Shown here: piece after piece, positions 1,900 to 6,542 of the stretch
Layout of the letters: each line of letters begins with the position of its first letter
How positions within the stretch are numbered: the stretch's first letter is position 1
DNA from: Bacilli bacterium
GTDB lineage: Bacteria > Bacillota_I > Bacilli_A > RFN20 > CAG-826
Direction: 5' to 3'
Length of the DNA: 64,000 nt
NCBI GenBank assembly: GCA_024408085.1
Contig: JAKSVH010000004.1
Location: forward strand, 1-64,000
Notes under the pieces: generated by a model
What the model was told of the DNA's origin: nothing
What the model saw: only the letters and a program-made list of their open reading frames with translations
Database searches by the model: none
Position numbers and translations under genes: made by a program

Positions 1900-3606
1900 A
1901 TGAAAATAGGTTATTTAAGCGGTTATAATTACTCCGCAAAAGCTAAAAAAGACATTGAGGATTTTCTTTCAATTAGTGAAGAAACTCAATATGTTGAAGA
2001 AACAAATTTAATTGATTTGGTAAAGAAACTTAAAAGCAAAGAATTTGCTTATATTATTCTTCCATCCAGGCTTACTTACACAAATGACATTTCGCCTGTT
2101 TGTTTAGATTTGATACTCCGTTGCTATGGAGAAGGTATTAACGAAATCTTTTCAAACGTTGATAAAGGAAGTGTTTTTAATCCTGTCGACTATAAAAATA
2201 GTGAAACAGTAACATTTGGAAACAAACACTATATAAGTTCTACAGATTTTGATGATATTAGTGAAAATAAACGCAACCATCTTGAATACAAAGTATTTAA
2301 ATTAAATTCTTATAAAACTCCTTGGTATTCCAAAGTACTTAATTTCTTATTAGCAAATCAATATGGAAGAGCCATTTTTGATGTTATATCAATATTAATA
2401 TCAGCAGCAGTTATTGTTTACCTTATTTTAAATGCTGTTGGTGTATTTGGAGAATTTGAACTTGGCGGTCAAATTGCTTCTGCAGTTTTACTTGCAGTTC
2501 AAGCTGCTATTAAAGTTTTCCAATTTGAAAAAATAGCAGAAAAGAAAATTATTAAAGGTTACTGGCTATATTATTCATTTGAGGACACATACGAACTTGG
2601 CAATTACGTTCCAAAAGGATTTACAACAAGATTACTTGAAATTAAAAATCGCGGTGATGAACTCTCTATGCAATGTGGTTTTGCTGGTAGCGACACATTA
2701 TTCTGGGAATCATGTGAAATCAATTATGACTATAACCCATCAAGTAGAATTGCAAGAGGATTCTACGCTTACAATGCAAACATTGTAAATGCAAAGGGAA
2801 AAAGGCCTGAAGGAACTTGTATGTTTAAAGGAAAGCTTGAGAAAAATGAAAATATTAAATACATGGATGGATGGTTTTCTGGCAGAGGTACAATGATTAA
2901 TGGCAGAGTCAAATATGTTAGAGTCACCAAAGAAGATTATGAAACCCTTTGCACTTCATATCCAGATAGATCAACAACATTTGATGGTTCAGCTATCGTG
3001 GTAGGAATTTTTGGAAACGCAGGAAGCAATACAGATTTTGCGTTTGATAAAGAATATGCCTCATTGGAAATTTTCCAAAAGAATAGAGTAATTAAAAAAT
3101 ACTATGATTCATTCGAAACACTTTATTGTGATTTGCTTGCTGGAAGAGTAAATAGAATCGTAGTTCCTATTTTAAACAAGGAAGAAGGCATTCCTTGTAA
3201 GGTATTTAACGAACATTCCACAGTTAAAGAAATCTTCTTAAGGGATTTTAAATTAATCCCAGATTCAAATAAAAAAGTTTTGATTAACTATGTTTTATGT
3301 TCTTCTATTAAAGATTATAAAATTAATGAAAAGACAAGATTTTTGTCTAACAAAATGGGTATTGCCCAATGTTGCGATTTTACCAAAGGTAAAGAAGTGA
3401 TAGATAGTTATTCATCTACAAGTGAAGCTGCTCGTTCAATGAGCTTAGGCGAAACAAGTAAAGACGATGTTGTTATTTGTAACGAAATGGCTGCTAACAT
3501 TTATAACTTGTATTGTCTAAAAGATGGCGATACAAGAATTAATCCTGTGAATAAAGGTGTTAAAAACATTACCGAATTTGTAATGCTAGAAAAAGCCAAA
3601 AAATAA
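1900..3606 (+). CDS. Membrane protein fusing prephenate-dehydratase-like lobes with a Cap15-like 2TM/beta-barrel region
   Basis: 568 aa. Residues 1-135 start KIGYLSGYNYS and contain AYIILPSRLTY, resembling the first lobe of prephenate dehydratase (PDT). Two hydrophobic helices lie at about 163-185 and 190-210. Residues about 220-345 are beta-rich (KGYWLYYSF, FWESCEINYDYN, GWFSGRGTMINGRVKYVRV), a pattern like the S-2TMbeta/Cap15 receptors of CBASS immunity. Residues about 366-568 follow a full PDT domain in order: GIFGNAGSNTDFAF, RIVVPILN, LSNKMGIAQC, SSTSEAA (about 505-511), NEMAANIYNL and ITEFVML. The catalytic TRF motif reads TEF (558-560), so the domain is probably a ligand sensor and not an enzyme. 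The start at 1900 has a GGGAGATAAC ribosome site. No cyclase/CD-NTase gene is seen next to it. Domain assignment is by eye; function is inferred. Confidence 0.7.
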   Translation: MKIGYLSGYNYSAKAKKDIEDFLSISEETQYVEETNLIDLVKKLKSKEFAYIILPSRLTYTNDISPVCLDLILRCYGEGINEIFSNVDKGSVFNPVDYKNSETVTFGNKHYISSTDFDDISENKRNHLEYKVFKLNSYKTPWYSKVLNFLLANQYGRAIFDVISILISAAVIVYLILNAVGVFGEFELGGQIASAVLLAVQAAIKVFQFEKIAEKKIIKGYWLYYSFEDTYELGNYVPKGFTTRLLEIKNRGDELSMQCGFAGSDTLFWESCEINYDYNPSSRIARGFYAYNANIVNAKGKRPEGTCMFKGKLEKNENIKYMDGWFSGRGTMINGRVKYVRVTKEDYETLCTSYPDRSTTFDGSAIVVGIFGNAGSNTDFAFDKEYASLEIFQKNRVIKKYYDSFETLYCDLLAGRVNRIVVPILNKEEGIPCKVFNEHSTVKEIFLRDFKLIPDSNKKVLINYVLCSSIKDYKINEKTRFLSNKMGIAQCCDFTKGKEVIDSYSSTSEAARSMSLGETSKDDVVICNEMAANIYNLYCLKDGDTRINPVNKGVKNITEFVMLEKAKK

Positions 3607-3641
3607 TGTTGCTACTAAATAGCGCATCTTACTTAAATTCG

Positions 3642-3677
3642 AGCCGATTGAGAAAATTTCTCAACGGCTTTTATTTA
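3642..3677 (+). terminator. Intrinsic terminator
   Basis: AGCCG-ATTGAGAAA-ATTT-CTCAA-CGGCT forms a long stem followed by TTTATTTAT. It closes the transcript of the 568-aa membrane protein. Confidence 0.8.
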
Positions 3678-3736: not shown

Positions 3737-4432
3737 ATGGAAGAGAACAAAAATTTAGAAGAAGTATACGATCAAAAAGAAGATTTAAGTGATCACTTTA
3801 CAACATTTTTTACAGTCGCAAAAAGTGAATACGATAACCTCGTTAAATTCATGAATGAGTATGTCTTTTCATTATTTAATGAAGGGGAAGCTTTTAGAGG
3901 CAACACGGAATATTTCAAAGAATATTCATTAAAGTCTTTCGATATTCTTCTTCAATATTCTGTTCTCCAACTCGCTATCAATGATGGAAAACTCATTGAT
4001 GAGCGAATTGAAATTGTTGAAGGAATCGCTATTCACGATTCTCTTCCACATATGATTGAAGCAAAGCTTCCTCATTTCAATTGGATGTCATTCACAAGCG
4101 GAACAAGAGAAGAAGCTTATGCTGCACTTGGAATGGTTTACGAAGCAATTGGTGACAACATCAAAGACTTCTCGTCTAAGTTAAACTTACACAAATATGT
4201 TAGTGGTGACACACTTGAAAGTTTCTACGTATGTGTCAAGCACCTTCTTGAAGTCATTATGGCTTCTTCAGGTGAATATAATGAAATTAAACCAGAAGAT
4301 TCCTGTTTAATCCTTGACGTTATTAAACCTCAACTTGAATACCATGAAGAAGTCAAAGATGACAAACTTTATCCAGTTCAAGAAGGAATCGAAACTATCG
4401 ATATAAATTATGATAACAAAAAGCATAATTAA
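3737..4432 (+). CDS. Helical protein, probably TerB-like
   Basis: 231 aa, soluble and helical. The segment VLQLAINDGKLIDERIEIVEGIA (about residues 76-98) is the helix-acidic turn-helix seen in TerB folds; a second, weaker copy is near ASSGEYNEIKPEDSCLILDVI (about 175-195). No catalytic motif is visible. The next gene overlaps its 3' end by 23 bases, so the two are translationally coupled and the protein probably works with the nuclease downstream. It shares this layout with the 143-aa protein at 723. The family assignment is tentative; the coupling is directly visible. Confidence 0.55.
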   Translation: MEENKNLEEVYDQKEDLSDHFTTFFTVAKSEYDNLVKFMNEYVFSLFNEGEAFRGNTEYFKEYSLKSFDILLQYSVLQLAINDGKLIDERIEIVEGIAIHDSLPHMIEAKLPHFNWMSFTSGTREEAYAALGMVYEAIGDNIKDFSSKLNLHKYVSGDTLESFYVCVKHLLEVIMASSGEYNEIKPEDSCLILDVIKPQLEYHEEVKDDKLYPVQEGIETIDINYDNKKHN

Positions 4433-6542
4433 AGATTATGTTGCAAGAAGATGCCCTTATCTCGCTAAAGCATCTTTAGATGATAATACTCTTCTTAGAC
4501 TCATTGAGTCTTATTTAGAGTTTGGCTCTAAAGAGGATTTAGAAGAAGCTATGGGCGATGATGCTACTGATGATGGCGATGATCCAAATCTCGAAAAGAC
4601 ATTTGATATCATCGAAATCATGAAAGATTATCCATATCTTCGAGAAGATATTGAAAAACTCATCATTAAGCATCAACAAGAAAATCCTCTTTATGGATTA
4701 CTTAAGAAATACGAAGATACTCAGGTAACTGCAAGGTTATCCAGAAGATACATTGAACTTATTTATGGTGCAGAAAATTGTCGTAGATGTGACATTAATG
4801 ATTTTGGAGTGGAAACCACTAACCAAAAATACATTGTCGAGAAAACTAAACAATATCTTAAAGATCCAACTGTCAAAGTTATCTTTGAAGGACAAGTTGA
4901 ACATAATGATTTAAGAGCAAGATTTGATGTACTCGTGAAAGAAGATAACGGAACCTTTACTCTTATTGAGGCCAAAGGTTCAAATTCACCTTTCACTCAT
5001 CCAGGTAAAGATAAAGAAATTGATACAGGAATCAAAATGCCGTATTTATACGACCTTTTATTTCAGTACTACATTTATATCAAAGAAGGCCTTAACATCG
5101 CTAGATTGGGCTATTTACACCTAAATAGAGAATTTAAATTCTCTTCTAATGATGTTAATTACCCAAATTTGAGTGATGAAGATGTTAATAACCTTTTTAG
5201 GTTATCTTTTGACCTTAATTTAAAAATTAACAAAGAAGAAACTGAAATTGTTCCAATAATTACTTACTTTGATTCAGATGCCTATCAAAAGATAGACAAA
5301 GACGGAAACCCAAAAATTACTCCAATTGAAGAAATTATTGCAGACATTAGGTTTATCGGAACAAAGTTTGAAATTAATCCTAAAAAACATTACGAATGCT
5401 GCAAAGGCGGAAAATGTCCTTTCTTACTTTCGTGTTTTGAGGATGCAGATGATCCAAATTCTATCTTCAAACTTTCTAGATGGGGAAGCTATGGTGGTTC
5501 TTGGTCACGTTCAAAGAAGCTTATTGAAGCTGGAATTGAACACATTAGTGATATTCCAACCTCAGTAGTGAACGAATACAAAGAAGAAAGCGAAAAGGAT
5601 GGCGTTATTAAGTATGGAAACGCTAGAAATCAAATCAAATTCCAAACCGAATGGTTAGGAAAAGGATTTGAATACGTTATCCATATGGATTTAATGAATT
5701 CAATCCTTCATAGAGATTATTTAAATGATAACATTGATTATCTTGTTTTCTTTGACTTTGAATCTATTCAAAATCCAGTGCCTCTCATGAGAGATGCTCA
5801 TCCATGGCAACAAGTTGTTACTCAATACTCAATGCATATTGTAGGAAGAGGTTATGATTTAACTAAACACGATTTCGCAAAAGGCAGGGGCGGAAACTGT
5901 TCTCACTATGAATTTATCGGTCATCCATCTGAAGATGGTTATACAAACCCTGAATTTGCATTATTTAAGACGCTCAGAAACCAATTAATAGACTTCGGCA
6001 TTAAACCAATGGCCAAGAACTACAAAGTAGTTGTATTTAACCAAAACTTTGAGAAAACTAGAATGAACGAGTTTGTAAGATTCTACACATCTCATCCTGA
6101 TGTAGACGCAGACCTCATTAATTTTGTGCAAAACTTTAATGATAACGTTGTAGACTTACTTGATTTCTTTACATCTGGCTCTTTCTATGGCACAAAATTC
6201 AACGGAAGAGGCTCACTTAAGGTTGTTCAACCAACATTATGTGATGATGAAGATGTTCAAGCCTATTATGATTCCATTAACTTGCCATTTGATTTAAGAT
6301 TTTCACTTGATTATCACAAGGAAGGCGCTCTTGTTTATAACGGTGGCATTTGTTTAGACCTTTTTAAGGCTTTACTTGTGAGAAATCATATTGATCCAAC
6401 CGATAACGATCCAGATGAAAACGATATGCTTGGACAAGCCCTTGCGTATTGTAAAATTGACTCCTGGGGAACAGTCATTATTTATGATGTTATTAAGCAC
6501 GTAAGCGATGGCAAAATTAAGCTAAAAGCGAAGATACTTTAA
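4410..6542 (+). CDS. DUF2779-type dual nuclease: PD-(D/E)XK plus DEDD 3'-5' exonuclease
   Basis: 710 aa. After a charged N-terminal region the sequence shows a PD-(D/E)XK core (E at GQVEHND, D173 in RARFDVLV, E187-A-K189), then a Cys cluster CCKGGKCPFLLSCF (about 330-345) that resembles the iron-sulfur clusters of RecB/AddB/Cas4-type nucleases. A DEDD exonuclease fold follows: FFDFES (D449, E451), a second motif near VVFNQNFEKTR and YCKID (D684) as the last acidic motif. Proteins of this build are annotated DUF2779 in many Mollicutes and other bacteria; their role is not established. It overlaps the TerB-like gene by 23 bases. No helicase is present in the window, so it is not an obvious AddAB subunit. 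A defence or repair role is plausible but unproven. Confidence 0.75.
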   Translation: MITKSIIKDYVARRCPYLAKASLDDNTLLRLIESYLEFGSKEDLEEAMGDDATDDGDDPNLEKTFDIIEIMKDYPYLREDIEKLIIKHQQENPLYGLLKKYEDTQVTARLSRRYIELIYGAENCRRCDINDFGVETTNQKYIVEKTKQYLKDPTVKVIFEGQVEHNDLRARFDVLVKEDNGTFTLIEAKGSNSPFTHPGKDKEIDTGIKMPYLYDLLFQYYIYIKEGLNIARLGYLHLNREFKFSSNDVNYPNLSDEDVNNLFRLSFDLNLKINKEETEIVPIITYFDSDAYQKIDKDGNPKITPIEEIIADIRFIGTKFEINPKKHYECCKGGKCPFLLSCFEDADDPNSIFKLSRWGSYGGSWSRSKKLIEAGIEHISDIPTSVVNEYKEESEKDGVIKYGNARNQIKFQTEWLGKGFEYVIHMDLMNSILHRDYLNDNIDYLVFFDFESIQNPVPLMRDAHPWQQVVTQYSMHIVGRGYDLTKHDFAKGRGGNCSHYEFIGHPSEDGYTNPEFALFKTLRNQLIDFGIKPMAKNYKVVVFNQNFEKTRMNEFVRFYTSHPDVDADLINFVQNFNDNVVDLLDFFTSGSFYGTKFNGRGSLKVVQPTLCDDEDVQAYYDSINLPFDLRFSLDYHKEGALVYNGGICLDLFKALLVRNHIDPTDNDPDENDMLGQALAYCKIDSWGTVIIYDVIKHVSDGKIKLKAKIL

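Follow-up and report, generated by a model that had tools for sequence, protein, structure and literature searches.

Architecture of the gene and its product

What might a protein do in which lobes resembling prephenate dehydratase (PDT) stand around two membrane helices and a beta domain? The question is raised by an open reading frame of 568 amino acids at positions 1900 to 3606 of the plus strand in the window (the whole stretch of 64,000 nucleotides analyzed here). The order of the parts in this protein is firm; its function is what we infer. The frame as a whole is supported by full-length homologues at approximately 30–35 % identity. It is preceded by a Shine-Dalgarno-like GGGAG (1886–1890, 9 nt 5' of the ATG, read directly) and followed, 3' of the stop codon, by a strong hairpin and a T-rich tail resembling an intrinsic terminator (3641–3670; −15.9 kcal/mol, z −4.8). 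The parts of the gene given below and the HicB-like ORF upstream also lie on the plus strand.

In every intact copy the parts follow the same order, namely a PDT lobe I, two membrane helices, a beta domain of about 130 residues and a full PDT-like domain. The earlier note had proposed this fusion, with PDT lobes around a 2TM/beta unit, and it is kept in all seven intact genes.

The N-terminal lobe (residues 1–85; 1900–2154) resembles PDT lobe I and is not followed by a lobe II. When compared with a profile of 29 PDTs using hhalign, it aligned with lobe I separately from the C-terminal domain (94 %, E = 1.9 × 10−7), and in the shuffle control at most one of at least 216 shuffles scored as high for the lobes of seven out of seven members. 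A Pfam scan of the N-terminal fragments alone gave no match. Because Pfam alone is blind to the lobe, its identification as a PDT first lobe, already suggested in the earlier note and borne out here, rests on the profile comparison. Membrane helix 1 (residues ~154–180; 2359–2439) was located by hydropathy and by the structure model. Helix 2 (residues ~188–212; 2461–2535) was located by the model; in the window protein its hydropathy stays below the threshold, yet hydropathy detected it in the relatives, so that two helices can be retained as first read. The net charge on the N-terminal side of helix 1 is positive in all members, which agrees with an N-in topology.

The C-terminal PDT-like domain

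PF00800 was the one Pfam family found in the protein (residues 368–567; E = 5.4 × 10−13; 49.6 bits against a curated cut-off of 25.2; profile positions 1–180 of 181). The whole C-terminal domain (residues 366–567; 2995–3600) was also aligned with the 29-PDT profile (hhalign 99 %), and a match to PHROG 10727 was confined to the PDT region. The TRF motif of PDTs is replaced by T-E-F in the window protein (residues 558–560; 3571–3579, read directly), as had been noticed from the sequence, and reads T-E-F, T-T-F or T-K-F across the seven members.

A set of 22 TRF-bearing PDTs served to define conserved positions. Of these, the family keeps G372, A381, P423, N426, Q490, N556, T558 and F560 and has lost the Arg of TRF and the Glu of PIEN. 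The 22 references were picked for having TRF, so that these three letters are bound to be conserved among them. The cleft-type residues N426, Q490, N556, T558 and F560 are invariant across the family, and the cleft seems to have been kept with an altered tuning. The expression "dead PDT" used for this domain in the earlier note is too strong: Thr, Asn and Gln are still there, and what has gone is the Arg and one Glu. Aromatic amino acids are bound by the ACT domain, and the protein contains no such domain.

No second PDT was found in the five carrier genomes tested out of eight (G000, G289, G317, G461 and G466), and therefore the gene does not serve these cells as the enzyme of the Phe pathway. 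In the tree (FastTree), the family grouped with L040 and L066, two PDT-like proteins that stand alone and lack the Arg of TRF (support 0.95). Stand-alone PDT-like proteins of 186–187 aa without ACT and with T-E-F or T-S-F for TRF were seen at L089 (6265–6828) and L090 (2638–3198).

BacA/AerD-type proteins are prephenate decarboxylases acting on a prephenate-like compound, and the window protein might be a membrane-tethered enzyme working on such a compound in their manner. The invariance of the active-cleft residues N, Q and Thr would fit this, as would the T-x-F of L040 and L066 together with their grouping. We consider it very improbable, since the Arg and Glu named above are lost, no biosynthetic neighbours were recognised and the PDT is less conserved than the beta domain.

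The beta domain and the Cap15 question

The beta domain (residues 215–341; 2542–2922) is the most conserved part of the family. An AlphaFold model built from seven sequences predicted eight antiparallel strands with low confidence (mean pLDDT 56), and the structure models as such are weak (pLDDT 46 and 56). Neither the full-length model nor that of the mid-domain had a Foldseek match at E ≤ 0.001; the best barrel matches had E ≥ 0.06, GrlR and lipocalin folds appeared weakly, and no Cap15 entry was among the fifty matches listed.

The segment had been described in the earlier note as of the S-2TMbeta/Cap15 kind. The low-confidence prediction of eight strands would agree with that description, whereas kinship with Cap15 lacks support from PF18153, hhalign and shuffles. 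For the comparison, nine Cap15-type proteins were used, one (L019, a Bacilli Cap15) from a CD-NTase operon of the same class and others from plasmids. None of seven members matched PF18153, even with E values up to 10 allowed (a true Cap15 control scored 69.7 bits), hhalign of the family against Cap15 gave 1 %, and the scores of a Cap15 profile on the barrel were mostly within those of shuffles. The sole in-register signal was that of the family profile on L019 (5.9 bits), which was equalled by 3 of 328 shuffles. In addition, GWFSGRGT in the window protein resembles GYYFTGRKT in Cap15. Because these tests of homology were all negative or marginal, we treat the resemblance to Cap15 as an analogy of layout; homology is not supported by sequence.

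The earlier note had also reported that no CD-NTase is adjacent, which holds, and no PF18144 (CD-NTase/SMODS) match was found anywhere in the eight carrier genomes using a single weak model, for which the positive control reached only E = 0.001. No gene for mCpol/OptS, the partner of OptE, was recognised among the neighbours. A true Cap15/S-2TMbeta relative, in which the barrel still binds a nucleotide and the PDT lobes are added control, would account for the shared succession of two helices and an eight-stranded beta domain, for the marginal L019 match and for the similar motif. The unmatched PF18153, the hhalign and profile results and the unmatched SMODS synthase speak against it, and we regard it as improbable.

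Distribution and gene neighbourhood

The gene was present in 8 of 279 genomes of the order that were examined, with seven copies intact and one decayed. The relatives are approximately 31–35 % identical to the window protein and show the same layout; G289, G461, G466 and G317 come from the same taxonomic family, and G738 and G739 from a second family of the order. The decayed copy (G737) is split into several frames (L048, 8517–10262) and lies between uppS and frr. The named carrier records are uncultured Bacilli/Firmicutes genomes. No carrier was found in the samples of the class and the phylum outside the order, where sampling was thin, and it is on this basis that we call the family narrow. 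Matches outside the order (L018, L080 and L085) were rejected as membrane-helix artefacts. Close relatives were absent from the scanned viral contigs, phages and plasmids. PADLOC gave no convincing match; its Csx27 and CARF matches were dropped (E = 0.01, single-member).

In the window, an orphan HicB-like antitoxin ORF (1625–1870; PF15919, E = 8 × 10−7) ends 29 bp upstream of the gene and is possibly co-transcribed with it; such an ORF was not seen beside the homologues. A DUF2779 protein is encoded downstream (4410–6542), with a partial match to the UU173 family. The neighbours in G737, G738 and G739 are housekeeping genes (mraZ, whiA/clpP and uppS/frr, named by eye from the sequences). In genus g33, an rRNA operon precedes the gene, with its 5S rRNA immediately upstream (L005, 485–596; L008, 7–118; L009, 475–586). 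The G289 copy, with AAA_21, RloB, Schlafen-group helicase and HNH genes within 10 kb, is the sole one near defence-like genes. No consistent defence-gene neighbour was found across the homologue loci. The neighbourhood thus offers an immune role, as proposed in the earlier note, the one G289 locus, and is otherwise mostly made up of housekeeping genes or the rRNA operon.

Selection and exchange between species

Purifying selection acts over the whole gene (dN/dS 0.09–0.13). Among the three copies of genus g33 (L010, 190–1902; L012, 667–2379; L011, 658–2370), the beta domain shares 95–98 % amino acid identity and the PDT lobe down to 63 %. The high conservation of the beta domain reflects constraint, because its synonymous sites differ as much as those elsewhere.

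By two flanking genes, G461 and G466 are sisters (proportion of synonymous differences 0.25–0.26). Their copies of the gene, however, differ at 0.49–0.77 of synonymous sites in every segment and share 63 % amino acid identity in the PDT. When G461 was compared with G317, the flanking genes gave synonymous differences of 0.45–0.63. Within the gene the values were 0.10 (PDT), 0.30 (N-lobe), 0.38 (barrel), 0.42 (helices) and 0.73 (linker), and every segment except the linker is closer than the flanking genes would predict. On the 3' side, G461 and G317 stop being nearly identical about 35 bp after the stretch encoding the protein; further out, G461 is like its sister G466. Exchange between species of the genus therefore appears to have affected nearly the whole gene, with which the breakpoint agrees; this covers three genomes and was drawn from segment comparison. 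The signal is strongest in the PDT, slight in the barrel and helices and absent in the linker, which suggests a mosaic. A swap of the sensor lobes alone was considered and rejected, as the segment-by-segment comparison with flanking genes showed nearly the whole gene to be affected. The position behind the 5S rRNA may favour exchange between operon copies.

A non-immune role has to be weighed against these data. The protein could be a physiological membrane regulator, an accessory protein that senses a nutrient or metabolite (in auxotrophs, for example, their aromatic or amino-acid status) and adjusts a transporter or the envelope. A solitary gene mostly amid housekeeping genes, tested carriers without a canonical PDT and the PADLOC result are all in keeping with such a regulator. 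Its presence in so few genomes of the order, its exchange between species and its decay in one of them are less easily explained in this way, and we hold the regulator to be a doubtful but serious candidate.

Proposed function

The reading we prefer, tentatively and with somewhat less than even confidence, is a self-contained ligand-gated membrane sensor-effector. The soluble parts would all be cytoplasmic. The PDT-derived clamshell would bind a small molecule other than prephenate, and the extra N-terminal lobe would perhaps complete or dimerise it. Opening or closing of the clamp would alter how the two-helix/beta unit packs or oligomerises, and this in turn would change membrane integrity or conductance.

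A stress- or phage-triggered effector would be the likeliest role, because of the sporadic presence, the interspecies exchange and a sensor that evolves faster than the constant beta domain next to it. Immunity as a role is plausible and unproven; the distribution and the exchange fit an accessory, possibly immune, gene. The small-molecule-gated immunity or stress effector put forward in the earlier note fits the same two observations and gains little from the gene context. A bolder version, rather unlikely at present, is an innate immune receptor encoded by one gene: a repurposed metabolic enzyme domain, varied by interspecies exchange, would directly detect a small molecule linked to infection and set off a membrane-disrupting barrel, and no second-messenger synthase would take part.

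Should the PDT clamp indeed gate the membrane part, a single chain derived from a biosynthetic enzyme would be receptor and effector at once, and the ligand-sensing folds of bacterial membrane effectors would extend beyond nucleotide receptors. The variable PDT lobe beside the constant beta domain makes the question of gating directly testable by domain swaps. A search of a limited literature collection for PDT linked to CBASS- or Panoptes-type systems returned nothing relevant, and no paper describing the architecture was found there, in line with the earlier note, which did not know of it either.

Comparison with known systems

With prephenate dehydratase (PF00800), the family shares a fold that is complete by sequence and the G, P, N, Q and N-x-T-x-F residues. 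It differs from that enzyme in lacking the Arg of TRF, the Glu of PIEN, ACT and a chorismate mutase domain, and in being fused to a membrane anchor and a beta domain with an extra N-terminal lobe I. The stand-alone L040 and L066 (186–187 aa) have the T-x-F and form the nearest PDT branch, but are without a membrane or beta domain.

S-2TMbeta effectors are oligomerising membrane disruptors under cyclic-nucleotide control, according to the Panoptes and CBASS papers (PMC12657230, PMC12657218). With Cap15 (CBASS), OptE/2TMbeta (Panoptes) and S-2TMbeta, the window family shares two helices and, after them on the same membrane side, a beta domain that is probably eight-stranded. The helices directly precede the putative barrel as in Cap15/S-2TMbeta, though here they are themselves preceded by a PDT lobe. 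In contrast to those effectors, the family has no detectable sequence homology to them, no synthase partner was found, and it bears large extra sensor domains on both sides.
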